This document shows positions 8,280 to 61,213 of a stretch of 64,000 nt of DNA, one piece after another (the first letter of the stretch is position 1; the number at the start of each line of letters is the position of its first letter). The position numbers and the translations under genes were made by a program. The DNA is from Mycetocola sp. (GTDB lineage Bacteria > Actinomycetota > Actinomycetes > Actinomycetales > Microbacteriaceae). The notes under the pieces were generated by a model, which did no database searches, was not told where the DNA came from, and worked only from the letters and a program-made list of their open reading frames with translations. The DNA lies in the NCBI RefSeq assembly GCF_025464835.1, contig NZ_JAODMP010000047.1:1-64000 (forward strand), written 5' to 3'.

Positions 8280-8563
8280 CTCCCCTTGCACCAAGAGTGT
8301 CCTGCAATCACATTCCGCGGTAGCTGCCACAGCAAACAACTAACGCTCTTTGAATATATAACGGAAAGGTAACAGCGTCTAGTTATCCAAACGTTATTTT
8401 TTGAGAATTCGCTTCGGCGAGGGGAGTCAGGCAGGAGCCCCGGACGGCGCAGACTCCGATTGCCTTCGGAAGCCGAAGTTCGAAGTCCCGGTCTGGAGCG
8501 CGAACCCCGCGTTTCCGGCGCCGGTGCACCGGATCGTCCAGCCGAACACCCGGTTGGCGACGA

Positions 8564-8794
8564 TCAGCTTCCAGGCCCGCCGAAGCTTGCGGCGCTCATC
8601 TCGCCGTCGAACTCCCGCATGGCAGCCAATGCCCTCCGTGCCGCGCGCCGTTTCCGGAGGATGAAGGTTGCCGTGAGCGTGTACGGGACGGCGCGGACCG
8701 TGAGGACGCAGGCCAGAGGAAGCATCACCATGATCAGGAGGGATGGCGCCCATGCCGAGGATCACGCCGAGCACACCAGAGGTGATGACGCCCT
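8564..8794 (-). pseudogene. Decayed membrane-protein gene
   Basis: Two minus-strand frames each contain credible membrane-protein sequence but neither forms a gene. The upstream piece reads GVITSGVLGVILGMGA directly after an in-frame stop. After a frame change the downstream piece reads LLIMVMLPLACVLTVRAV, then a basic segment ILRKRRAARRALAAMREFDGE, and stops at 8564-8566. The hydrophobic-then-basic pattern suggests the C-terminal part of a small integral membrane protein. The family could not be named and the call depends on fragment plausibility only. Confidence 0.35.
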
Positions 8795-8988
8795 AGGGTT
8801 CAGCTCGCCGTAGCGGCCGTCCGCGGCGCAGGGTCGACCACGTCGGATGCGTCATGGTGTGTCAGTTCTGTAGCGTAGCTGCCGCCCGTGTTGCCGGTTG
8901 ATCGATTGACCCGTTCGGGGGCTCACATCCACCCGTGGCAGAGAACCGCGCTTGTTGCAAGGCCAGAGGTTCCCGCGGACTCCCGGCC

Positions 8989-11553: not shown

Positions 11554-12246
11554 CTAGAAGAGATCCGGTGACGGGGTCGAGGAGTGACGGATCGACACAT
11601 CGGCGTGACGGTCGAAGCGGTAACCAACGCCCCGAACGGTGCGGACGATGTCCTCGTAGCGGCCGAGCTTGGCGCGCAGGCGGCGCACGTGTACGTCGAT
11701 CGTGCGCTCGTTGGGCACCTCGTCCTCGTCACCGGCTTTCCAGAGCGACGAGATGAGTTCGGTCCGATCAATCGTGCGGCCTTCCCGCAGCACGAGATAC
11801 TGCAGCAGTTCGAACTCCTTGTAGGTCAGGCTGACCGACTCGTTGTCGAGCACCAGGCGCTTACGGGAGATGTCGATGACAACACCGGAATGAGCCCGAT
11901 CGAGCTCTTCCTGCTCTTCGGCCTGGCGGTGTTTGGCGAGGGCCGACGGGTCCTGCAGGGCGAGCCGGACGACATCGACGTCGCGGCCGCCTGCGCCCTC
12001 CGGCGCCAGGGCGACTGCCGCGTAGGTCTCGGACTCTGGCGCCAGGTCGGCGGCGAGAGCTTTGAGCGCCTGGACGATTGCGCCGAGGCTCGTGCCCGCT
12101 GCCGCCGCCTTGGCATCGTCGATCCCGACATAGAGGACGAACCCGCGAGCTTCGGTTCCGGCCGGAACGGCTCGAAGGTGCGGAGCGGATGACGAAGCGG
12201 AGGAGGTGTTGGACGGCGCGAAAGAGGTTGCGTGTGCGAGGGACAT
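11554..12246 (-). CDS. Winged-helix (OmpR/PhoB-type) transcriptional regulator without receiver domain
   Basis: A 230-residue protein. The C-terminal 100 residues are a textbook OmpR/PhoB DNA-binding domain: SLTYKEFELLQYLVLREGRTIDR, then ERTIDVHVRRLRAKLG and IVRTVRGVGYRF. The N-terminal half is not a response-regulator receiver; it lacks the acidic pocket and phospho-Asp and instead reads FVLYVGIDDAKAAAAGTSLGA followed by a predicted helical segment. Similar orphan winged-helix regulators occur in Microbacteriaceae. No histidine kinase is adjacent, so the signal is unknown. AAAGGAA lies 9-10 nt before ATG 12246. It converges on the UvrA-like gene with only 14 bp between stops. Confidence 0.85.
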   Translation of the reverse strand: MSLAHATSFAPSNTSSASSSAPHLRAVPAGTEARGFVLYVGIDDAKAAAAGTSLGAIVQALKALAADLAPESETYAAVALAPEGAGGRDVDVVRLALQDPSALAKHRQAEEQEELDRAHSGVVIDISRKRLVLDNESVSLTYKEFELLQYLVLREGRTIDRTELISSLWKAGDEDEVPNERTIDVHVRRLRAKLGRYEDIVRTVRGVGYRFDRHADVSIRHSSTPSPDLF

Positions 12247-12459
12247 CAGGAAGTTCCTTTTGATGATGAGTCTGCGTCGAACCGCGGCCCCGCGATGCGC
12301 GGGTGCCGGTGGGCGGCGGCGGTTCGGAATGTGGCCTGTGCGGTGGCCGGAGCGGATGCGGAGTGTGGCATCCGGGACGCGAGCGGCGACGAGATCGGTC
12401 GACGGGCGCGTGGCGACGGGTTACGCGGTTAGCGACACATTCGACAACACATGCCTGCG

Positions 12460-12484
12460 CTGCCGGCCATCATCATGCCGGCAG
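12460..12484. terminator. 8-bp perfect stem hairpin
   Basis: CTGCCGGC and GCCGGCAG flank a 9-nt loop (CATCATCAT). It sits in a non-coding region about 215 bp upstream of the winged-helix gene start; there is no obvious gene for it to terminate. Confidence 0.4.
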
Positions 12485-12728
12485 TTCCACGAGGCTCGAA
12501 GGAGCTCAAGGGGAAGGCGTTATCAGTCATGTCGAGAAGTTAACAGCACCGCGTCGAAGTGTGTCAAATCTTTGCACCGGATGACGATAAAACCCCAGAT
12601 TTAGAAGTTTCTGCATCGAATCCGTGGAAGAGGCACAGATTCTGTCGATGCGATTCGCGTGGTGGCGACGCGGCGCAGGACCTGCGTGAGGTGCCGGGGC
12701 CCGGATCGACGCAGCAGCGTGCGCTACA

Positions 12729-12777
12729 TTGCCAGAAGCGGCTGGAGATCTCGCCGGAACCCGACCCTTCCTGGCAA
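12729..12777. repeat. 49-nt hairpin element, copy 2
   Basis: Bounded by TTGCC and GGCAA, exactly 49 nt, with left half TTGCCAGAAGCGGCTGGAG, which differs from copy 1 (5231-5279) at two positions in 19. It lies about 110 bp past the upp stop codon (transcribed leftward) and could be part of its terminator region. Confidence 0.5.
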
Positions 12778-12886
12778 TGGAACGCTTCTGCGGAGCGGAT
12801 GCCGTGGCATCCGTCGCGCAGTTACGAAGCGGGCGACGGCACGATCTGCCGAGGGTGTGGTCGGGCGGGTGAAAAAGGGTGTCGTC

Positions 12887-13519
12887 CTAGACGAGCCCGT
12901 AGAGGCGGTCACCGGCGTCGCCGAGACCCGGAACGATGTAGCCGTTCTCGTCGAGGCGTTCATCCATGGCGCCCAGGACGATCGTGACGTCGCGGCCCTC
13001 CGTCGCCTTCTCGAGCGCAGCGATTCCTTCGGGCGCGGCGAGCAGGCAGATGGCAGTGACGTCGACGGCTCCGCGGGCGAACAGGAACTCGATCGCCGCA
13101 CCGAGCGACCCACCGGTCGCGAGCATCGGGTCGAGGACGAAGCACTGCCGGTCGGAGAGGTCGTCGGGCAGGCGCTCCGCGTAGGTGGCGGGCTCGAGCG
13201 TCTCTTCGTTACGCACCATGCCGAGGAAACCGACCTCAGCGGTCGGCAGAAGCTTCACCATGCCCTCGAGCATGCCGAGTCCGGCGCGAAGGATAGGCAC
13301 GACCAGGGGTCGCGGTTGACTGATCGCCAGGCCCATCGTCGTGGTGACCGGGGTCTCGATCTCGACCGGCTCGGTGCGCACATTCCGTGTCGCTTCATAG
13401 GCGAGCAGGGTGACAAGCTCCTCGGTGAGGGCGCGGAACACCGGCGACGGTGTGGTCCGATCCCGCAACACGGTCAGCTTGTGGGTGATCAGGGGATGGT
13501 CCGCTACGTGCACTCGCAT
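12887..13519 (-). CDS. upp: Uracil phosphoribosyltransferase
   Basis: A 210-residue pyrimidine salvage enzyme making UMP from uracil and PRPP in the cytosol. Diagnostic segments are [36 protein letters not shown] (PRPP-binding loop near residues 120-145) and the C-terminal uracil-binding [20 protein letters not shown]. Length matches the family (about 208-212). ATG 13519 has TAGGTT (plus-strand 13526-13531 in reverse) 6 nt upstream, a leaderless promoter. It is divergent from tadA. Confidence 0.96.
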
Positions 13520-13662
13520 GGTTCAAACCTACCGCCTGCGGTCCGATCCCCCGTCGACGAAAGGTTCGGATCCACCGGTGCGGGTGGGTACTGTTCGCTG
13601 AGAACGCTGAACCCGCTCTGAACCACGCGTCCAATAGGCTTTCGGCAGAACAGGAGGCCCGG

Positions 13663-14139
13663 ATGCCGCTGCCCATCGACCCCGTCGATCAGAGGTGGAT
13701 GCTCCGCGCCCTCGACGAAGCGCAGGCGGCGCTGATCACCGAAGACGTCCCTGTCGGTGCCGTCATCGTCGGTTCCGACGGGCTCCTCCTCTCGACCGGG
13801 CGCAACGCCCGCGAGGCGAGGAAAGACCCGACCGCCCACGCGGAGGTCGAAGCGATTCGGGCCGCGGCTGCGGCATCAGGGAATTGGCACCTCACGGACG
13901 TGACCCTCTACGTCACCCTCGAACCATGTGTCATGTGCGCTGGAGCGATCCTCGCAGCGCGGATTCCCCGGGTCGTTTTCGGCGCGTGGGATGAGAAGGC
14001 GGGAGCATCGGGCAGCGTCTACGACGTGTTGCGGGATCGTCGGCTCAACCACCGGGTCGAGGTGGTCGCCGGTGTCGAAACGGATGCCTGTTCGTCGCTT
14101 CTGACGGACTTCTTCCGTTCCTCCGGCCGGCCGCGCTGA
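13663..14139 (+). CDS. tadA: tRNA-specific adenosine-34 deaminase
   Basis: A 158-residue zinc deaminase converting A34 to inosine in tRNA-Arg(ACG). The catalytic HAEVE motif has His59 and Glu61, and PCVMC supplies Cys89 and Cys92 for zinc; VPVGAVIV and the C-terminal tRNA-contact region (DVLRDRRLNHRVEVVAGV) are also present. An AGGAGG site precedes ATG 13663. It converges with the universal stress protein gene with only 4 bp between stop codons. In many actinobacteria upp and tadA are neighbours, as here. Confidence 0.96.
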   Translation: MPLPIDPVDQRWMLRALDEAQAALITEDVPVGAVIVGSDGLLLSTGRNAREARKDPTAHAEVEAIRAAAAASGNWHLTDVTLYVTLEPCVMCAGAILAARIPRVVFGAWDEKAGASGSVYDVLRDRRLNHRVEVVAGVETDACSSLLTDFFRSSGRPR

Positions 14140-14143
14140 GAGC

Positions 14144-14989
14144 TCAGCGGGCGATCACCGTCGGCGCGGAGAGTCGCGCGAGGACCCCATGGCTCACCGA
14201 GCCGAGCAGGAAACGGGCGACGGCACCCCGGCCGTGGCTGCCCACCACGATGAGTGAGGCATCCTCCGCCACCTCGGAGAGGACGGTGACCGGGTCGCCC
14301 TCCGCAACGATGCGGCGGACCTGAAGGTTCGGGTGGGCACCCATCACCCCGTCAAGCGCACGGGCGAGGGTCTGGTTGCCGATCTCTGTCAGGTCCTCGA
14401 CGTACTCGACCGGGAAAGCGAGGTCGTAGCCGTAGACAACCGGGTTGGGCCAGGCATTCACGGCGATGAGGGGCTGCCCCAGCCTCTCGGCTTCCTCGAC
14501 GGCGAACACCAGCGCGTGCTCGGAACTTGGTGAACCGTCCACCCCGACGACGACGCCGGACCTGCCGGAGTAATCGACGGCAGGGACGACAGCGACAGGA
14601 GTGGTGCTCGCTGCCGCGATGCGGAAACCGCGGTTGCCGTGCCTGCGCGAGGTGTCCTGGCCCGTCGAGTCGCTGCCAACGACGACCATCTCGACATCCC
14701 GCGAGAGGGCGATCAGGTCCGCCTGAGGGTCACCCACCCGCGTTTCCGACGCCACCTCGAGTCCAGGAGCCACCGTCCGCGCCAGCTCCTCCGCTGATGC
14801 GAGCATCTGCCCGATGTCGGAGCGGGCGGCTTCCAGAAGTCCTGCGCTGCCTGCGCGACGCATCCCCTCGTCGACGATGTGAACGAGATGGAGTCCCAGG
14901 CCGCGGGACTTGGCACGCTCGGCGGCCCAGCGTACCGCCGTCCTGCTTGTGTCGAAGTTCTTGACACCGACCAGCATTCGTGTGGCCAT
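14144..14989 (-). CDS. Universal stress protein, tandem UspA domains
   Basis: A 281-residue protein with two UspA domains (about 4-140 and 150-281). The second carries the ATP-binding signature VVGSHGRGAVARFLLGSVSHGVL (G-2X-G-9X-G-S); the first has a degenerate equivalent around VVVGSDSTGQDTSRRHGNRG. Such tandem proteins bind ATP and support survival under hypoxia or starvation in actinobacteria. A GAGAGCGGGA site precedes ATG 14989. The HhH-GPD gene ends up to 24 bp upstream in the same direction, so an operon is likely. Confidence 0.92.
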   Translation of the reverse strand: MATRMLVGVKNFDTSRTAVRWAAERAKSRGLGLHLVHIVDEGMRRAGSAGLLEAARSDIGQMLASAEELARTVAPGLEVASETRVGDPQADLIALSRDVEMVVVGSDSTGQDTSRRHGNRGFRIAAASTTPVAVVPAVDYSGRSGVVVGVDGSPSSEHALVFAVEEAERLGQPLIAVNAWPNPVVYGYDLAFPVEYVEDLTEIGNQTLARALDGVMGAHPNLQVRRIVAEGDPVTVLSEVAEDASLIVVGSHGRGAVARFLLGSVSHGVLARLSAPTVIAR

Positions 14990-15013
14990 CGGGTCCCGCT
15001 CTCTTTTCGGTAT

Positions 15014-15592
15014 TCAGGTCGCTTTCTTCGCGGCGGCCTTCGCCGCCCGTTTGGTCTCCCGCACGCGCGAGAGTGACTCGGTGTCGATGATGTCGGCGAC
15101 GGAGCGGAAGCTGCCGTCGTCACCGTACGAGCCGGCGGCTTCACGCCATCCGGAACCGGTGAAACCATACTGCTTGCCGAGGAGCGCGACGAAGATGCGG
15201 GCTTTCTGCTCGCCGAAGCCGGGAAGCCCGGTGAGCCGCCGGTACACCTCGTGCCCATCGGGGGCGCCGCGGGTCCACAGGGCGGAGGCGTCGCCGCCCC
15301 ACTCGGCGACGAGGCTGCGGCACAGCACCTGGATTCGGCCGGCCATGTTGCCGGGGTAGCGGTGAACGGCTGGCGGCGTGCGGCACACCTCGACGAAAGC
15401 CTCAGGGTCATGTTCTGCGATCGACGCGGCGTCGAAGGATCCCAGACGGTCGCGGATCTTCGCCGGCCCCGCGAACGCCGTCTCCATCGGCACCTGCTGG
15501 TCGAGCAGCATGCCGATCAGCAGAGCCAGGGGGTCCGCCGACAGCAGCTCGTCAGCGTCGGGGTCCCCGGTAATACTCAACTGCGGCGTCAT
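15014..15592 (-). CDS. HhH-GPD family base-excision DNA repair protein
   Basis: A 192-residue protein with the HhH-GPD glycosylase fold: LLIGMLLDQQVPMETAFAGP (helical N-domain), then the helix-hairpin-helix LTGLPGFGEQKARIFVALLG near residues 120-140. The C-terminus is Lys/Arg/Ala-rich (RVRETKRAAKAAAKK) and probably binds DNA. Actinobacterial relatives are annotated as HhH-GPD-type repair proteins with unknown lesion specificity. No Fe-S cysteine cluster is seen, unlike Nth or MutY. It is transcribed toward the universal stress protein gene. Confidence 0.88.
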   Translation of the reverse strand: MTPQLSITGDPDADELLSADPLALLIGMLLDQQVPMETAFAGPAKIRDRLGSFDAASIAEHDPEAFVEVCRTPPAVHRYPGNMAGRIQVLCRSLVAEWGGDASALWTRGAPDGHEVYRRLTGLPGFGEQKARIFVALLGKQYGFTGSGWREAAGSYGDDGSFRSVADIIDTESLSRVRETKRAAKAAAKKAT

Positions 15593-15657
15593 GCCTCATG
15601 CCTACCACGCTCCCGGGAGAAGTACGAGCCATACGGCTCCATAGTGCGGAACGAGCG

Positions 15658-16295
15658 TCAGTCCTCGCTCGTGAGCACGATCGCTTCTGTCGCAGGAGCG
15701 TCTGCGGATGCGTGACGGTCGACATCCGGATCGAGATCACTCGCGCGGCTGGCACAGCGGTGCGGATACGTTGATCGATGGCGTCGATGTGGGCGGAGAC
15801 GACGTCGAGCGGCAGATCGGCTGAGAATGCGAGCTTGGCTGCTACGAGGAGTTCGTCCGGCCCCAGGTACAGCGTCTTCATCTGGATGAGCCTCTCGATC
15901 TCGCCGCCGTTCTCGATGGCGGCCGTGATCGCTGAAGAGACCGTTGTGAATGCCCTCGTAAATGGAGAACACCCCACTGACCGAGAACAGGATGATCGAG
16001 ACGACGAACGCGTGAACGTAGCGTTCCTGGCCGTAGCCGTAGCCGTAAGCCCTAGCCCTAGCCCTAGCCCTAGCCGTAGCCGTAGCCGTAGCCGAAGGGA
16101 TGCTGCGTGTCTGCCGCACGTTTTGGCCTTGCGTCCACCGAGCAGAAGCAGCAACTGGTTGTCAGAGTCGGCCACCGAACGCTCTCAGCCAGCATCGACG
16201 ACGATCCTGAGAAGAGAGACGCGATAAATTTCGTCACCGCTATCCCCAAGTTTGCGAGGTATGCCGCGACGATTGCCCTGCTGCCGCGTGCTCAC
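15658..16295 (-). pseudogene. Decayed cation diffusion facilitator (CDF) family transporter
   Basis: Pieces of one CDF protein lie in order in different minus-strand frames: a GTG start at 16295 after AGAGGGAG; AIVAAYLANLGIAVTKF and SGSSSMLAESV (first helix); SVADSDNQLLLLLGG (second); ADTQHPFGYGYG then a hexanucleotide expansion; QERYVHAFVVSIILFSVSG and VFSIYEGIH (third); then a jump to MKTLYLGPDELLVAAK and IDAIDQRIRTAVP (cytoplasmic domain), with stop at 15658. The region for helices 4-6, roughly 110 residues, is missing, and at least three frameshifts are visible. Intact members export Zn2+, Mn2+ or Fe2+. This copy cannot be functional. Confidence 0.85.
16031..16097. repeat. Compound hexanucleotide tandem repeat in the CDF pseudogene
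   Basis: Eleven adjacent units: CCGTAG x2, one 7-nt CCGTAAG, CCCTAG x4, CCGTAG x3, CCGAAG. Read on the minus strand the core unit is TACGGC, encoding Tyr-Gly, and it starts exactly at the conserved HPFGYG motif of the CDF protein. The array therefore looks like slipped-strand expansion of the Gly-Tyr-Gly codons, followed by drift to the CTAGGG variant. Confidence 0.9.
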
Positions 16296-16323
16296 TGTCG
16301 ATCTCCCTCTTCTGCGAGGAAGT

Positions 16324-17274
16324 TCAGGGAGTGATCGAGCCGGTGTGGGCGGTGTAGACAAACGGGTGAAGCGGATGCGACGGGGCGAGGTCGAGAAGCG
16401 CCTGCACACCGTCGAGTGGCCGGCCGAGCGGCTTTTCCAGGGACGCCCCTGGGGCGCGGGCGGCAAGCGCTGCGACCAGGGCGTCCCGTACCGGGATGGC
16501 CTGGGTCGCGAGCGCGCCGACAGCGCCGACTCTGGCGTACTGGCCAGGCTGCCAGCCGACGCTCCGCAAGGCGCTCGCCGCCGAGTGCGCGAGTTCACCG
16601 GCCGCTGCGGCGACGATGCCGCCGGCGGTTTCGTCGCCCGCGGCCGCGGCATCCACAACGTCACGGCAGAAGGAAGCGATGAGCGAAACCCGCTTCGGGT
16701 CCGCCTGCACCACCATGTAGACCTCGTCCAGAGGCCCGAATCGTTTGACGGCGGTGGCTTCGAGGATCGAATGTGGGGCACGGCCGTCGAAGGCGCGCAG
16801 CGCCGCGTCCAGCCCAGCCCGTCCGATCCAGTATCCGCTGCCTGCGTCGCCGAGCAGCGAACCCCACCCGTCGACCTTCGCCACGCTCGACTCGGACAGC
16901 GCCAGGACGACGACGCCGGTGCCAACCGCGAGCATGACGCCCGGCTCGGTGCCGTTGGCGGCGAGGTAACCGGTGACCGAATCGTGAGCGAGGGCAACTC
17001 GCTGTACGCCGATCCCGCGGGTGGCTGCAAGCAGGGCTTCGGGATTGGCGGCGGCCGGAGTCAGGCCGGACGTTCCCACGGCGAGCTCATCGATGCGCGA
17101 CCCGGTGGCATCCGCCAACCGGCCGGCGAGTTCGGTGAGCTGGTCGACGACCGGCCGGTCGGTGAGGACGCCTGGCCCCTCGGTTTCGGAGAGGATGCCG
17201 GCGGAGTTGCTGAGCCGCAGGCGCGTTCCGGTCTGGCCACCGTCGATCGAGAGGCGGGTGGAATGTGGGGGCAT
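16324..17274 (-). CDS. BadF/BadG/BcrA/BcrD-type ATPase, probable N-acetylglucosamine kinase
   Basis: A 316-residue ASKHA-fold kinase. The N-terminal phosphate loop LSIDGGQTGTRLRL, the central ALAHDSVTGYLAANG, VMLAVGTGVVVLAL and the GWGSLLGDAGSGYWIGRAGLDA motif match the eukaryotic-like GlcNAc kinase/BadF group. It probably phosphorylates an amino sugar or a related sugar with ATP; the adjacent beta-mannosidase supports a glycan-salvage setting. ATG 17274 follows a GGACGA stretch. It is divergent from the PLDc_N protein gene, and its stop lies 28 bp before the CDF pseudogene. Confidence 0.82.
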   Translation of the reverse strand: MPPHSTRLSIDGGQTGTRLRLSNSAGILSETEGPGVLTDRPVVDQLTELAGRLADATGSRIDELAVGTSGLTPAAANPEALLAATRGIGVQRVALAHDSVTGYLAANGTEPGVMLAVGTGVVVLALSESSVAKVDGWGSLLGDAGSGYWIGRAGLDAALRAFDGRAPHSILEATAVKRFGPLDEVYMVVQADPKRVSLIASFCRDVVDAAAAGDETAGGIVAAAAGELAHSAASALRSVGWQPGQYARVGAVGALATQAIPVRDALVAALAARAPGASLEKPLGRPLDGVQALLDLAPSHPLHPFVYTAHTGSITP

Positions 17275-17411
17275 GAGTCGTCCAGGTTCGAGGTTCCAGG
17301 CGAACGGGAGCGGACCAGGTCGACGATCCGCGTGTCGGCCCCTCATCCTACGGTCGGGGCGCACTCCCGGGCTCCACTGTGGGGTCTTGGCACGAGCTGC
17401 CGTGCCCTCAA

Positions 17412-17427
17412 TAGACTGTGCCGCATG
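17412..17427 (+). promoter_or_regulatory. Leaderless promoter of the PLDc_N gene
   Basis: TAGACT at 17412-17417 precedes ATG 17425 by 7 nt. Confidence 0.45.
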
Positions 17428-17805
17428 TACGTCGTCGTATCGGTCGTGACTCTTCTTCTCGTCGTCGGCGCGCTCGTCGACATCAGCACCCGATCCGAGT
17501 GGCAGGTGAAGCACCTGCCGAAGACGGTCTGGGTACTGCTGGTCGTCTTCCTGCCGCTCATCGGCAGCATGCTGTGGTTCCTGATCGGCCGCGAATACAG
17601 CAAGCCACCAGGGGAGATCTTCACCGTCCGGCCGACGGCCAGCGAGCATCCGGACCAGTGGTCGCAGGCCCCAGCAGCCAGCCGCCCCGAACCCACGGAG
17701 AAACAACTTCTGAGGGTCGAGCGTGAGATCGAGTTTCACGAGAAGCAGGCCAGGATCACGCAGCTGCAGGCCGACCTCGACCGGAGGCACGCAGAGGCGG
17801 AGTAA
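17425..17805 (+). CDS. PLDc_N domain (phospholipase D N-terminal-like) membrane protein
   Basis: A 126-residue protein with two membrane helices: MYVVVSVVTLLLVVGALVDI and VWVLLVVFLPLIGSMLWFLIG, the latter ending in the IGR that marks PLDNc-type proteins. A charged coiled-coil C-terminus follows (LLRVEREIEFHEKQARITQL). The catalytic HKD motif of phospholipase D is absent, as in most stand-alone actinobacterial copies, so no lipase activity is implied. A second protein with the same plan is at 39619-40035. Confidence 0.85.
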   Translation: MYVVVSVVTLLLVVGALVDISTRSEWQVKHLPKTVWVLLVVFLPLIGSMLWFLIGREYSKPPGEIFTVRPTASEHPDQWSQAPAASRPEPTEKQLLRVEREIEFHEKQARITQLQADLDRRHAEAE

Positions 17806-17897
17806 GCCGCGCCCGCCGTGGCGACGGCCACGAGCGGCATGGTTGACGACGCCTGCCCCGCAGCAACGGCCCTGATCCGAAAGAAGAGACCCTCCAC

Positions 17898-20378
17898 ATG
17901 ACACTCATCTCACTGAACTCCGATGCCACGAGCTGGGCACTCCGCGCGGTCGCCGGCCCGGTCGATGCGGGCGTCGCGGACCGCGACATTCCCGCTGCGG
18001 TACCCGGCGAAGTGCAACTCGACCTGCTCGCCGCCGGGCTCATCGCCGACCCGTTCGACGGCGCAAACGAGAAGACCCAGGCCTGGATCGGGTACTGCGA
18101 CTGGCGATACAGCACAACGTTCTCCTGGACGGCGAAGAACGCCGAGCGTCACGACCTCGTCGCAGACGGGCTGGACACCGCAGCAACCGTCACCCTCAAC
18201 GGGAGGGAGGTCGCCCGCACCAGGAATCAGCACCGCGGTTACCGTTTCGATGTCACCGCACTGCTTCGAGAAGGGAAGAACGAGCTGACCGTCGACTTCC
18301 GATCGCCGATCGAATTCGCGCGCGAGCAGGAGGCGCTCCTCGGCGAACGACCGACGGTGATGCACCATCCTTTCAACGCCATCCGCAAAATGGCGTCCAA
18401 CTTCGGCTGGGACTGGGGCATCGATGTCTCGAGCTCCGGCATCTGGAAGTCCATCGGAATCGATTCGTGGTCCGGAGCGCGCATCGCCTCGGTGCGGCCC
18501 CTGGCCGAGACCGACGGGAGCACCGGCATCCTCACCGCCCATGTCGCGCTCGAATGGGCGGCCGGCGCCACAGCGACCGACGTTTCCGTCACCGTGAACG
18601 GCCGCACCGAAACTGTACGAGCAGCCCCGGGCCAGACGGATGCCGTCGTCAGCGTCGACGCCGGAAGTGTCGCCCTGTGGTGGCCACGCGGGTACGGCGA
18701 CCAGCCGCTCTATCGCGTCGACGTGGCCGCTGGCGATGCCGCCTGGACGGGCCACGTCGGGTTTCGCACCGTCGTGCTCGACACCGCACCGGACGAACAC
18801 GGCTCTCGGTTCCACCTCACGGTGAACGGGACAGTGATCGGCATCCGGGGCGCCAACTGGATCCCCGACGACGCTTTCGTCACGCGGCTCACCCGCGAAC
18901 GCTACCGCGCGAGAATGGCGGATGCCGTCGACGCCAATCTGAACCTCCTCCGGGTCTGGGGCGGTGGCCTCTACGAATCCGACGACTTCTACGACGCGTG
19001 CGACGAGCTCGGCTTGCTGGTCTGGCAGGACTTCCTGTTCGCCTGCGCCGCATACGCGGAGGAGGACCCGCTGCGAAGTGAGGTCGAAGCGGAGGCCCGT
19101 CAGCACATCACGCGGCTGAGCGCGCATCCCAGCCTCGCGCTCTGGAACGGCTGCAACGAGAACATCTGGGGCTACCTCGAGTGGGACTGGCGTCGCGAAC
19201 TCGGCGAAAGAACGTGGGGTGAGGGGTACTACTTCGATCTGCTGCCTGCGCTGGTCGCCGAACTGGACCCCACGACTCCGTACTCGCCAGGGAGCCCGTT
19301 CTCGTACACGCGGTACGCGCACCCGAACGACCCCCGCCACGGAACCAGCCACATCTGGGATGTTTGGAACGACAAGGACTACACCGTCTACGGCGAGTAC
19401 CGGCCGAGATTCGTGAGCGAGTTCGGGTTCCAGGGGCCGCCTGCGTGGTCGACGCTCACAGCATCCGTTCACGACGAGCCACTCGATCCGTACGGCGAGC
19501 AGATGCTCGTGCACCAGAAGGCCGCGGACGGCAACCTCAAACTCGACCGCGGACTCGGCCAGCACCTGCCCAGCCCGCGCTCGATCGAGGAATGGCACTG
19601 GGCGACGCAACTCAACCAGGCCCGGGCACTGCGGTTCGGGATCGAGCATTTCCGCTCCCTGACGCCGCTGAACAGCGGGTCGATCATGTGGCAGCTCAAC
19701 GACAACTGGCCGGTCATCTCCTGGGCCGCCGTCGACTATGCCGGCCACCGCAAACCGTTATGGCACGCGCTCAAGCACGCATACGCCGACCGGTTGCTCA
19801 CCATTCAGCCACGCGACGGCCGGCCGACCCTTCTCGCCCACAACGACTCAGCCGAGCGGTGGCGCGACACCGTTCGTGTCAGCCACCAGTCCCTCGACGG
19901 GACCGAGATCGCCAGCCAGGTCGTCGACGTCGACATCGAGCCGCGCGGCATCGTCTGTGTCGACCTCGAGTCGCGGGTGATCACGGCGACGGATGCTTCG
20001 ACCGAATTCATCTCGGCGACCGCATGCGAGGCAACCCCGGCGTTCTGGTACTTCGTGGAGGATCCCGGCCTGGCGCTGCGCCCGTCATCCGAAGCATTGA
20101 CGGTCACGACGGAGGCAACACCGACCGGGCTCCGGATGACCGTGACGGCGATGTCGCTCGTCAAGGACATCGTGATCCAGGCTGACAGGCTGGATGCCGC
20201 GGCATCCGTCGATCGCGGACTGGTCACCCTCGTCGCTGGAGCGAGCGCGGTGTTCACGATCACCGGTGAGATCGGACCGGATGTCCCGAGCGGGTTCCCC
20301 GTGGTGAGCTCCGCCAACGATCTTGTCACCGGTGAACGAAATCAGAGGCCACACGGTGGTTCCCCCGGCCGCGATTGA
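17898..20378 (+). CDS. Glycoside hydrolase family 2 beta-mannosidase
   Basis: An 826-residue retaining hydrolase. Residues 1-180 form the sugar-binding jelly roll (including GYRFDVTALLREGKNELTV and NFGWDWGI), 190-290 an Ig-like domain, and about 300-620 the TIM barrel. Glu421 of WNGCNENIWG fits the acid/base and Glu508 of VSEFGFQ the nucleophile. The NFGWDWG and WNGCNEN motifs point to beta-mannosidase rather than beta-galactosidase. No signal peptide is seen, so it should act in the cytosol on imported mannosides or on N-glycan fragments. It sits beside a sugar kinase, but in the opposite direction. AAGAAGAG precedes the ATG. Confidence 0.92.
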   Translation: MTLISLNSDATSWALRAVAGPVDAGVADRDIPAAVPGEVQLDLLAAGLIADPFDGANEKTQAWIGYCDWRYSTTFSWTAKNAERHDLVADGLDTAATVTLNGREVARTRNQHRGYRFDVTALLREGKNELTVDFRSPIEFAREQEALLGERPTVMHHPFNAIRKMASNFGWDWGIDVSSSGIWKSIGIDSWSGARIASVRPLAETDGSTGILTAHVALEWAAGATATDVSVTVNGRTETVRAAPGQTDAVVSVDAGSVALWWPRGYGDQPLYRVDVAAGDAAWTGHVGFRTVVLDTAPDEHGSRFHLTVNGTVIGIRGANWIPDDAFVTRLTRERYRARMADAVDANLNLLRVWGGGLYESDDFYDACDELGLLVWQDFLFACAAYAEEDPLRSEVEAEARQHITRLSAHPSLALWNGCNENIWGYLEWDWRRELGERTWGEGYYFDLLPALVAELDPTTPYSPGSPFSYTRYAHPNDPRHGTSHIWDVWNDKDYTVYGEYRPRFVSEFGFQGPPAWSTLTASVHDEPLDPYGEQMLVHQKAADGNLKLDRGLGQHLPSPRSIEEWHWATQLNQARALRFGIEHFRSLTPLNSGSIMWQLNDNWPVISWAAVDYAGHRKPLWHALKHAYADRLLTIQPRDGRPTLLAHNDSAERWRDTVRVSHQSLDGTEIASQVVDVDIEPRGIVCVDLESRVITATDASTEFISATACEATPAFWYFVEDPGLALRPSSEALTVTTEATPTGLRMTVTAMSLVKDIVIQADRLDAAASVDRGLVTLVAGASAVFTITGEIGPDVPSGFPVVSSANDLVTGERNQRPHGGSPGRD

Positions 20379-20401: not shown

Positions 20402-21244
20402 AGCGACGACGGAACGATCCCCAGTATTGCGATTCTCGGTACCGGTTCGATGGGGTCGGCGATCCTGTCAGGGCTGCTGCAGCCGGGAGTGGCCGTCCCT
20501 GGAGGCGTCCGCGTCACCAACCGGACTCGAGCCAAGGCCGACGAGCTGGCGAAGCTGCCCGGGGTCACCTCGCTCGCACTCGAGGACCAGCCCGACGCGA
20601 ACCGCACCGCTGTGGCCGGCGCCGGCGTCGTCCTCGTCGCGGTCAAGCCGGCCATGGTGCCTGACCTGCTGCGCGAAATCGCCGACGCCCTCGAGCCTGG
20701 CACGATCGTCATCAGCGTCGCCGCCGGGGTGACTGTGGCCACCTTCGAGTCGCTTCTGCCCGACACCATCTCAGTGCTTCGCTCGATGCCCAACACCCCG
20801 GCCGTCGTTGGCCGCGGCGTCACCGGGCTGTCGGCCGGCACGCGCTCGAGCGAGGAGGACCTTGCTCTCGCCCGTACCGTTTTCGAGACCGTCGGCACAG
20901 TGGTCGAGGTGCCCGAAAGCCAGCTGGACGCCCTCAGCACGATCTCAGGCTCCGGCCCTGCCTATGTCTTCCTGCTCATCGAGGAACTGACGAAGACCGC
21001 CGTGTCCAAAGGGTTCACCGCCGAGCAGGCTGCCGTGCTCGTGAACGGAACCTTCCTCGGTGCGTCTGAGCTGCTCGCCCAGTCCGATAAGACGCCCGAG
21101 CAGTTGCGCATCCAGGTCACGAGTCCCAAGGGGACGACCGAGCGCGCGGTTGCCGTCCTGCAGCAGGCGAACCTCAAACGCCTGTTCGATGAGGCAACGG
21201 ATGCCGCCCTGGCGCGGGCGAAGGAACTCGCGGCCGGCGCCTGA
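20399..21244 (+). CDS. proC: Pyrroline-5-carboxylate reductase
   Basis: A 281-residue enzyme for the last step of proline synthesis, reducing 1-pyrroline-5-carboxylate with NAD(P)H. The Rossmann loop IAILGTGSMGSAILSGLL is at the N-terminus, VSVAAGV and LRSMPNTPAVVGRGVTGLS in the middle, and the dimerisation/active-site helices (LDALSTISGSGPAYVFLLIEEL and PKGTTERAV) near the end. Length is normal for the family. It is followed by a 60-nt hairpin element before the convergent trkA gene. Confidence 0.96.
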   Translation: MSDDGTIPSIAILGTGSMGSAILSGLLQPGVAVPGGVRVTNRTRAKADELAKLPGVTSLALEDQPDANRTAVAGAGVVLVAVKPAMVPDLLREIADALEPGTIVISVAAGVTVATFESLLPDTISVLRSMPNTPAVVGRGVTGLSAGTRSSEEDLALARTVFETVGTVVEVPESQLDALSTISGSGPAYVFLLIEELTKTAVSKGFTAEQAAVLVNGTFLGASELLAQSDKTPEQLRIQVTSPKGTTERAVAVLQQANLKRLFDEATDAALARAKELAAGA

Positions 21245-21259
21245 CCCACGTGCGGGGGC

Positions 21260-21319
21260 GTCACCTGTTTCGCACGCGCTCACCCGGTGCGCCGGATGCT
21301 TTCCTCCGAAACGGGTGAC
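21260..21319. repeat. 60-nt palindromic element, copy 1
   Basis: Outer arms GTCACCTGTTTCG and CGAAACGGGTGAC (one mismatch) enclose CACCCGG/CCGGATG inner pairs. The total is exactly 60 nt, as in copies at 26357-26416 and 63694-63753, with about two thirds identity to the former. It lies between convergent proC and trkA and could terminate both. Confidence 0.6.
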
Positions 21320-21341
21320 CAGGCGGTGGCGGGTTGTGTCC

Positions 21342-22013
21342 CTAGCTGGTCAGGGACGCGAACTTCTCGATGTCGCCCGTTGTGCCGGACACGATGATGA
21401 GATCGTGGTCTGTGACGACGGTGTCCGCCGTTGCGTAGGTGAACGGTTTTCCCGGTGATTTCACGCCGACGACGGTGATGCGGTACTTCGAACGAACGCC
21501 GCTCCGCCCGAGCGGAAGTCCGCGGATGGGTTTCGGCGGGTACATCTTGACGAGGGCGAAATCGTCGTCGAACTGGATGAAGTCGAGCATCCGGCCGCTC
21601 ACGAGGTGGGCGACACGTTCACCGGCCTCGGCTTCCGGGTAGATGACATGGTTTGCCCCGACCCTGGCCAGGATTTTTCCGTGCGACTGTGAGACCGCCT
21701 TGGCCCAGATCTGCGGGATTTTGAGGTCGACAAGGTTGGCGGTGATCAAAACGCTGGCCTCGATCGACGATCCGACGGCGACCACGGCGATGGAGAAGTC
21801 CTGCGCCCCGACCTGCTTGAGGGCCTCGATGTTTCGCGCGTCCGCCTGAACGGTGTGTGTGATCCGCTCTGACCATTTCTGCACCAGCTCGGCACCCTCG
21901 TCGATGGCGAGGACCTCACGGTCGAGCCTGTCGAGTTCGCCCGCGCACGCTGCTCCGAAGCGACCGAGCCCGATAATGAGGACGGGGGCGTCGTGTTTGA
22001 TCCGATCAACCAA
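21342..22013 (-). CDS. trkA: TrkA/KtrA-type potassium uptake regulatory subunit
   Basis: A 223-residue cytosolic RCK protein. The N-terminal NAD/ATP-binding Rossmann domain begins VLIIGLGRFGAACAGELDRL and includes VLAIDEG; the C-terminal RCK_C domain covers about residues 135-223 (YPPKPIRGLPL, then DTVVTDHDLIIVSGT). It gates the TrkH/KtrB channel encoded immediately upstream; the genes overlap by 8 bp. I chose TTG 22013, 7 nt after a GAAAGG site; TTG 22016 is the alternative. One RCK unit, rather than the two of E. coli TrkA, fits a Ktr-type system. Confidence 0.92.
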   Translation of the reverse strand: MVDRIKHDAPVLIIGLGRFGAACAGELDRLDREVLAIDEGAELVQKWSERITHTVQADARNIEALKQVGAQDFSIAVVAVGSSIEASVLITANLVDLKIPQIWAKAVSQSHGKILARVGANHVIYPEAEAGERVAHLVSGRMLDFIQFDDDFALVKMYPPKPIRGLPLGRSGVRSKYRITVVGVKSPGKPFTYATADTVVTDHDLIIVSGTTGDIEKFASLTS

Positions 22014-26173: not shown

Positions 26174-26349
26174 CGTTGATCGAGTAGCGACGAAGGAGCG
26201 TATCGAGATCCTCGCTGCGGGAGGCGGATCTCGATACGGCCGCAAGCGGCCTACTCGATCAGCGGGCTGTGGCGGCAGGCGGCCTACTCGATCAGCGGGC
26301 TGTGGCGGCAAGCGGTCTACTCGATCAGCGGGCCGTGGCGGCAAGCGGG
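26174..26349. repeat. GATC-type inverted repeat plus three 33-bp tandem copies (locus A)
   Basis: A left arm starting GTTGATCGAGTAG (26174) and ending GTATCGAGATC pairs with a right arm from GATCTCGATACGG (26227) to CTACTCGATCAGC (26263). The tail CTACTCGATCAGCGG... then repeats in three tandem 33-bp units starting at 26251, 26284 and 26317. Related elements are at 32983-33226 and 36320-36359. Confidence 0.85.
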
Positions 26350-32954: not shown

Positions 32955-32982
32955 CCCGCCGGTCTAACGGTCGCCCTCCTCC

Positions 32983-33226
32983 GTTGATCGAGTAGCGACG
33001 AAGGAGCGTGTCTTCGTTGATCGAGTAGCGACGAAGGGGCGTGTCTTCGTTGATCGAGTAGCGACGAAGGAGCGTATCGAGATCGTTGGCGTCGGCTGAC
33101 GGATCTCGATACGGCCGCAGGCGGCCTACTCGATCAGCGATGGGGTGGCTGCAGGCGGTCTGCTCGCTTGTCCACAGACTGATCTCGATACGCGGACTCG
33201 CTCCGCTCGGTCGCTACTCGATCAGC
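32983..33226. repeat. GATC-type repeat array with 33-bp tandem period (locus B)
   Basis: The forward arm GTTGATCGAGTAGCGACGAA occurs at 32983, 33016 and 33049, exactly 33 bp apart; the third copy continues into GTATCGAGATC. Two inverse arms follow: 33102-33138 (GATCTCGATACGG...CTACTCGATCAGC) and 33181-33226, the latter with a different centre. It fills most of the 288-bp gap between convergent ccsB and menC. Confidence 0.85.
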
Positions 33227-59671: not shown

Positions 59672-61213
59672 ATGACCACAACGAAGCCCGCGACCGGGCT
59701 CTCCAAGAAGGGACTGAGCGCTGGCTCGGTCGGCCTGATCGGCGCGATCGTCATCGGCATCTCGTGTATCGCTCCCGCGTACACGATGACCGCGGCGCTC
59801 GGGCCTACCGTGTCCGAAGTGGGCCTGCAGGTGCCCGCGATCATCCTCGTCGGCTTCATCCCGATGCTCCTCGTTGCCTTCGGTTACCGGGAACTGAACC
59901 GTGCCATGCCCGACAGCGGAACGTCGTTCACCTGGGCCACTCGGGCGTTCGGGCCGTGGATCGGCTGGATGGCCGGCTGGGGTCTGATCGCGGCGACCAT
60001 CCTCGTTCTGTCGAACCTGGCAGGCATCGCCGTTGACTTCTTCTACCTGATGCTCGCGCAGATCTTCAACAACCCGGATCTCGCGGACCTCGCCCTCAAC
60101 CCGTTCATCAACGTCGTCACCTGCCTCGCCTTCATGCTCGGCGCCACCGCGATCTCCTACCGTGACATGCGGACCACCCAGAAAGTGCAGTACGTGCTGG
60201 TCGGTTTCCAACTGCTCGTCCTCGTTCTCTTCGGTATCGTCGCTTTCATCCACGTCGCCAACGGCACCGCGTTCGATGCGACACCGATCAGCCTGGAGTG
60301 GTTCAACCCGTTCGCCGTGGAGTCGTTCAGCGCATTCGCCGCGGGTCTTTCCCTGTCGATCTTCATCTTCTGGGGCTGGGACGTCACACTCACGATGAAC
60401 GAGGAGACGAAGGGATCCCGCTCCACACCGGGGCGCGCCGCCACACTCACGGTGATCATCATCGTCGTCCTCTACCTGCTCATCGCCACCGCGTCGATCA
60501 GCTTCGCCGGCATCGGAACCGGCGAGTTCGGGCTCGGCAACGAGGACATCCAGGGCAACGTCTTCTTCGCGCTCGCCGGGCCGGTCCTCGGACCCCTCGC
60601 CATCCTCGTCTCCATCGCCGTGCTCTCCAGCTCAGCTGCCTCGCTGCAGTCGACGTTCGTGTCGCCCGCCCGCACGCTGCTCGCGATGGGCCACTACGGC
60701 GCTTTGCCGTCGAACTTCGCGCGGGTGAGCCCCCGGTTCCTGACGCCTGGCTACGCGACGATTGTGTCGAGCGTAGTGGCATCCGCTTTCTACGCGATCA
60801 TGCGATTCGTCTCTGAAGACGTGCTCTGGGACACGATCACGGCGCTTGGCATGATGATCTGCTTCTACTACGGCATCACGGCATTCGCAGTGGTCTGGTA
60901 TTTCCGCAAGCAGTTCCTGGCATCGGCTCGGAACGTCTTCTTCCAGTTGCTGTTCCCGCTGCTCGGAGGGGTCATTCTCGCCGTGCTGTTCTTCACCACG
61001 ATCATCGACAGCATGGACCCGGATTATGGCAGCGGCTCGAACATCGGCGGAGTGGGCCTTGTGTTCATCCTCGGGATGGGCGTCATTCTGTCTGGCATCG
61101 TGATCATGATCATCCAGGCAATCCGCCGGCCGGCGTTCTTCCGCGGTGAGACGCTCTCTGTGGGAGTCTCCAACGGCGCGGAGGACGACGCGCTCGACGA
61201 GCTGCCGGTGTAG
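59672..61213 (+). CDS. APC family amino acid/polyamine permease
   Basis: A 513-residue transporter with about 12 helices. The first helix region GLSAGSVGLIGAIVIGISCIAPAYTM and the consensus-like ELNRAMPDSGTSFTWATRAFGPWIGWMAGWG are the APC signature; WGWDVTLTMNEETKGSRSTPGRA matches helix 6-7 loops. Placement at the end of the putrescine/GABA operon suggests putrescine, GABA or a related amine as substrate. A GAGGA site precedes ATG 59672. A 58-nt palindromic repeat follows. Confidence 0.9.
   Translation: MTTTKPATGLSKKGLSAGSVGLIGAIVIGISCIAPAYTMTAALGPTVSEVGLQVPAIILVGFIPMLLVAFGYRELNRAMPDSGTSFTWATRAFGPWIGWMAGWGLIAATILVLSNLAGIAVDFFYLMLAQIFNNPDLADLALNPFINVVTCLAFMLGATAISYRDMRTTQKVQYVLVGFQLLVLVLFGIVAFIHVANGTAFDATPISLEWFNPFAVESFSAFAAGLSLSIFIFWGWDVTLTMNEETKGSRSTPGRAATLTVIIIVVLYLLIATASISFAGIGTGEFGLGNEDIQGNVFFALAGPVLGPLAILVSIAVLSSSAASLQSTFVSPARTLLAMGHYGALPSNFARVSPRFLTPGYATIVSSVVASAFYAIMRFVSEDVLWDTITALGMMICFYYGITAFAVVWYFRKQFLASARNVFFQLLFPLLGGVILAVLFFTTIIDSMDPDYGSGSNIGGVGLVFILGMGVILSGIVIMIIQAIRRPAFFRGETLSVGVSNGAEDDALDELPV

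Follow-up and report, generated by a model that had tools for sequence, protein, structure and literature searches.

The window analysed here, a stretch of 64,000 nucleotides on contig 26 of a Mycetocola sp. draft assembly (2.66 Mb, 106 contigs), holds on its minus strand, between positions 16295 and 15658, 638 nt with pieces of a cation diffusion facilitator (CDF) protein in different frames. The three genes around this locus are open, with lengths as in Mycetocola miduiensis CGMCC 1.11101 (G005). Upstream lies a syntenic gene (16324–17274, minus; start codon picked by comparison), which we take to encode a BadF/BadG-type N-acetylglucosamine-kinase-like protein. Downstream lie a gene for a HhH-GPD-type base excision repair protein (15014–15592, minus; TIGR03252) and a gene presumably encoding a universal-stress-type protein (Usp; 14144–14989, minus), which is likewise syntenic. 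No Rfam matches were obtained in the window.

The assignment to the CDF superfamily is based on profile and protein searches. The piece at 16085–16270 matches PF01545 with 28 bits, above the Pfam cut-off of 26.6 bits, and the adjoining minus-strand piece at 15925–16059 reaches 24.1 bits, below it. A tblastn search of the window with the intact G005 orthologue returned three minus-strand pieces in different frames and in the order of the protein: 16082–16288 (G005 residues 5–74, 61% identity), 15946–16068 (residues 61–101, 66%) and 15714–15947 (residues 224–301, 71%). These results bear out two claims of an earlier sequence-only reading, namely that the reconstructed protein resembles CDF transporters and that its fragments are ordered and lie in different frames. 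The G005 orthologue itself scores 116.6 bits against TIGR01297 (cut-off 82.35) and aligns with FieF over residues 9–295 of 320. The genome of the window contains further PF01545 matches, on contigs C31 (two), C19 and C59; three of these four align to the CDF of the locus at 26–30% identity, and the fourth does not match it. A plasmid search gave distant CDF-like matches only, in two records.

An alignment (MAFFT) with the intact orthologues of G005 and a second congener, G002, placed the remnant between the former GTG start codon and the TGA stop (15658–16295, minus) and revealed six frame-changing lesions, in gene order −5, −4, +1, an inserted repeat array (+55), −368 and −4 nt. The 5-nt deletion lies directly after the start codon (junction 16287/16288) and the last 4-nt deletion in the C-terminal domain (junction 15735/15736), both placed to within a few nucleotides. 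The first 4-nt deletion (junction 16178/16179) strikes the HxxxD motif of helix 2; about 50 nt further on, a 1-nt insertion near 16126 restores the frame, leaving about 17 residues out of frame in between. The 368-nt deletion (junction 15943/15944), placed by the alignment, by tblastn and by comparison with FieF, removes approximately residues 102–223. With helix limits that we take from FieF/YiiP, this corresponds to about helices 4–6, the same helices whose deletion had been read from the sequence beforehand; here the loss appears as a single event. The four smaller indels had not been noticed in that reading.

Thus, no continuous frame encoding six helices plus the C-terminal domain is left in this interval, which carries six frame-changing lesions including the 368-nt deletion. 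The ligands of metal site A, located in helices 2 and 5, are likewise not kept: the 4-nt deletion disrupts the HxxxD motif, which falls out of frame, and the helix-5 stretch is deleted. In the intact gene, the helix-2 HxxxD aligns with DxxxD of FieF, and residues of site A have been named for a CDF transporter (PMC10617992). Since the copy is disabled and two congeners have an intact orthologue at this site, the minus strand at 15658–16295 is, as far as its sequence can tell, a broken CDF gene, and the earlier description as a pseudogene stands.

Within this pseudogene, a tandem array of 11 units occupies positions 16027–16093 of the minus strand at the HPFGYG motif, as determined with the tandem-repeat finder TRF, by alignment and by direct reading. 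From 16093 down to 16027 the order is (GGCTAC)3 (GGCTAG)4 GGCTTAC (GGCTAC)2 GGCCAG. The 7-nt unit GGCTTAC (16045–16051) shifts the frame. The four GGCTAG units (16052–16075), which had escaped the earlier reading, are TAG stops in the HPFGYG frame. That reading had correctly counted eleven units, one of them 7 nt long, and had placed the array at 16031–16097, 4 nt off its actual position. The array measures 67 nt compared to 12 nt in orthologues (+55), and in the intact G005 and G002 genes the same 12 nt consist of one unit, half a unit and an Arg codon. It lies exactly on the ancestral GGC TAC GGC codons, and a perfect 9-nt seed, GGCTACGGC, is found in G002 and at eight further loci out of 19 orthologue loci. 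The near-identical short tandem units exceed chance expectation, as the TRF score of the array is 93 and 50 first-order Markov sequences of equal length reach at most 79. Elsewhere in the genome of the window the exact GGCTAC triple is absent; outside the array locus, one 18-mer on contig 101 matches it with one mismatch. When two mismatches were allowed, the genome search gave eight matches and the backward control nine, i.e. no enrichment. A hairpin as an aid to slippage found no support, since the predicted single-strand DNA fold is weaker than that of shuffled sequences (z +3.18; the model does not score quadruplexes).

In order to place the array among relatives, we compared 19 orthologue loci, the best matches among 67 matching genomes, comprising 18 of the same family and one from a different family within the order. 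All 19 carry one unit, with His in place of Tyr in the unit of one locus (L012). The single motif HP[F/Y]GYG[R/S]E occurred in 68 of 120 family genomes, against none for the control. The longer pattern HP[F/Y]GYGYG, indicative of two or more units, matched one of 398 family genomes, that of the window itself, so the array is rejected as a family trait. The finding of one unit in each locus and of two or more units in none of the 397 other family genomes supports the proposed expansion from a short ancestral motif. An intact orthologue with the same long repeat, which would have spoken against this proposal, was sought among those 397 genomes and not seen.

In the intact orthologue, ADKEHPFGYG lies opposite ADDNHSFGHG of FieF, with the spacing of YiiP site B. 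In Shewanella YiiP, this zinc site is formed by D70, H73 and H77 on the TM2–TM3 loop; according to PMC10617992, CDF transporters do not share a conserved sequence there. The HPFGYG motif is nevertheless common in the present subfamily, whose intact members retain the Asp and the first His of site B and have Tyr at the second His, so that even the intact gene differs from YiiP here. Overall, the locus resembles the CDF superfamily (TIGR01297/PF01545; FieF/YiiP) in that the intact G005 orthologue exceeds the TIGR01297 cut-off and the window pieces match PF01545. In contrast to FieF and YiiP, the window copy lacks about helices 4–6 and a continuous frame, and carries an array at the site-B loop.

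Next, we compared the locus across the genus, which was represented by six genomes, one per species. Of the five congeners, two (G005 and G002) have an intact syntenic orthologue and three lack it at the site (G001, G003 and G004, the last being Okibacterium sp. HSC-33S16), which indicates that loss is common in the genus. In G005 the order is kinase-like gene, intact CDF gene, repair gene and Usp; in G002 it is kinase-like gene, intact CDF gene and Usp, with the repair gene located elsewhere. In G001 the kinase-like gene is followed 56 nt on by the repair gene, with no CDF gene between them, and in G003 and G004 the Usp gene directly follows the kinase-like gene and the repair-gene match lies elsewhere. 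The closest CDF matches in these three genomes are distant paralogues (≤ 37% identity). The CDF gene also adjoins the kinase gene in Okibacterium fritillariae, outside the genus, and its presence at this site is therefore probably ancestral. The CDF gene was thus probably lost up to four times in the genus, with regain by transfer as an alternative. A tree of the kinase-like neighbour places the window next to M. miduiensis with 98/94 support; the other forks are weaker. The locus accordingly offers a snapshot of gene decay, in which six genomes of one genus show the gene intact, half-decayed or gone.

We consider it highly probable (about 0.85) that the locus is a decaying CDF orthologue in which a seed at the HPFGYG codons expanded, most likely by slippage, and in which the TAG units multiplied after function had been lost. 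According to this history, the ancestor of the genus probably had an intact gene for a CDF divalent-metal transporter. In the lineage of the window, after the split from M. miduiensis, function would have been lost, and small indels as well as the 368-nt deletion would have gathered. The 1.5-unit hexamer seed at the codons for Gly-Tyr-Gly in the HPFGYG loop would have expanded, most likely through replication slippage. A change of C to G in one unit would have created TAG, and this unit would itself have multiplied to four, a step expected only without selection on the gene. The 1-nt insertion in one unit would have occurred at some point. We infer both the process of array growth, replication slippage, and the spread of the TAG units later than inactivation.

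With respect to timing, the sequence-only reading had left open whether slippage killed the gene or the array grew after its death; the latter is now favoured for part of the array, the GGCTAG units. Since each GGCTAG is an in-frame stop, three of the four copies were most likely added after inactivation, and growth from one to four most likely took place in an already dead gene. This order of events follows from a single argument, that of the in-frame stops, and assumes one C-to-G change common to the four units. Because GGCTAG growth most likely post-dates gene death, the whole array is not simply the killer of the gene. The GGCTAC copies, being frame-neutral, could predate inactivation; no relative examined carries extra ones. 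The variants of the unit hence indicate which part of the array most likely grew once selection had ended.

Substitutions in the CDF gene of the window lineage are distributed over codon positions 1, 2 and 3 as 10, 10 and 29 (n = 49; excluding gapped columns, three-way differences and everything from residue 302 onwards), which is far from uniform (P = 0.0006). This bias suggests, on the strength of codon positions, a recent inactivation, with selection acting over most of the period since divergence from M. miduiensis. Positions 1 and 2 together account for 20 of 49 changes in the CDF gene versus 31 of 109 in two neighbours (P = 0.14, a weak test with few changes), which leans towards relaxed selection in the CDF gene, and versus 12 of 37 in the CDF gene of the G005 lineage (P = 0.50); neither difference is significant.

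A different sequence of events, in which expansion of the hexamer preceded the other lesions and killed the gene through in-frame gain of GGCTAC followed by a TAG or 7-nt unit, appears rather unlikely to us. In its favour are the placement of the array exactly on the ancestral codons and the perfect seed in G002 and eight further loci. Frame-neutral GGCTAC gain could moreover start in a living gene, and, owing to the −4/+1 pair, the GYG codons are still in frame where the array lies. However, two units were seen in none of the 397 other family genomes, so that expansion in living genes has no observed example, the increase of the TAG units from one to four should come after inactivation, and the −5 lesion alone puts the start codon out of frame. 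This scenario overlaps with the preferred history, as the later growth of the TAG units still falls after gene death.

Errors of sequencing or assembly as the source of the array or of the lesions might be suspected in a draft of 106 contigs, and are very improbable: the lesions are concentrated in the CDF gene, and the open neighbours, all three of the same length as their G005 counterparts, speak against noisy sequence and sequencing error. The 67-nt array is also below the usual short-read length and has unique flanks, and it is accompanied by substitutions and a large deletion. We find it hardly credible that the remnant encodes a functional short protein. An ORF of 153 aa (15658–16119) does run openly through the array, reading it as Ala-Thr, Ala-Arg and then Tyr-Gly before helix 3. 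Past helix 3, however, most of the C-terminal domain is read out of frame, and long chance ORFs are common, with 57 ORFs of at least 60 aa overlapping 12000–20000.

Microsatellites in bacterial pseudogenes arise by slippage in DNA that is free of selection. The locus shares with them the short unit, the near-perfect tandem copies, a frame-breaking unit and the dead gene, and differs in that the seed of the array is a conserved protein motif and that one stop-bearing unit variant multiplied alone. In general terms, the locus adds to a known kind: it shows ordinary gene decay, accompanied by the history of a tandem repeat. Among the literature listings and the beginnings of abstracts, neither this gene nor the growth of a hexamer in a pseudogene of the genus was a subject.

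The C-to-G change had a further consequence, as it produced (CTAGGG)4 from the GGCTAG units. A regular-expression scan predicted a canonical G-quadruplex sequence motif, GGGCTAGGGCTAGGGCTAGGG, at 16050–16070 of the minus strand, with four GGG tracts and three short CTA loops. The window shows no enrichment of such motifs, with five distinct places compared to 4.4 on average across 50 random sequences. The array shares the hexamer, the four GGG tracts and the CTA loops with the human telomere variant (CTAGGG)n, from which it differs in that its locus is no telomere. Four successive CTAGGG repeats are reported to be prone to G-quadruplex formation in vitro, and contiguous CTAGGG arrays to cause telomere instability, which according to the same report cannot be explained by G-quadruplex formation alone (PMC8136832). 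A folded quadruplex structure of the CTAGGG repeat has been reported as well (PMC3867476). The exact 21-mer GGGCTAGGGCTAGGGCTAGGG occurs in three of 394 class genomes and the same letters reversed, as a control, in about 26; the 21-mer is thus the rarer of the two, which fits the scarcity of CTAG (24 observed in the window versus 43 expected from trinucleotides, four of the 24 lying in the array). The other two matches in the class lie outside any ORF of at least 110 aa in their loci.

A role of the quadruplex in promoting array growth is speculation. We regard it as improbable that the C-to-G change in a single Tyr codon, by making CTAGGG, a hexamer that forms quadruplexes and is unstable as an array in human telomeres, gave rise to a unit that drove its own multiplication in the dead gene to four copies, the number required for one quadruplex. 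If this were true, the array would document the birth of a repeat driven by DNA structure in a bacterium. A natural (CTAGGG)4 in a bacterium would make repeat instability measurable without telomere biology.

Further observations concern the remainder of the window. An ORF of 826 aa at 17898–20378, presumably beta-mannosidase-like, is the best match of no G005 ORF of at least 120 aa from 320001–400000. The segment 47664–48053 matches only the C-terminal end of the G005 gene 334613–335917, the remainder being unmatched nearby, and is a possible second gene remnant; the next G005 gene (335875–337440) has only a 47% relative in the window, at 59681–61159. Two tandem arrays with a 33-nt period are present at 26238–26348 and 32982–33075, with 3.4 and 2.8 copies and 93 and 96% matches, respectively (TRF); their units have the cores CTACTCGATCA / TGATCGAGTAG in common in opposite orientations, and they may constitute one repeat family. 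Finally, the spacing between matched ORFs is about 0.1 kb at 21241–21345 and about 0.5 kb at 8354–8894 compared to about 4.9 kb each in G005 (364069–368953 and 381213–386160), which fits the smaller genome (2.66 versus 3.1–3.3 Mb).
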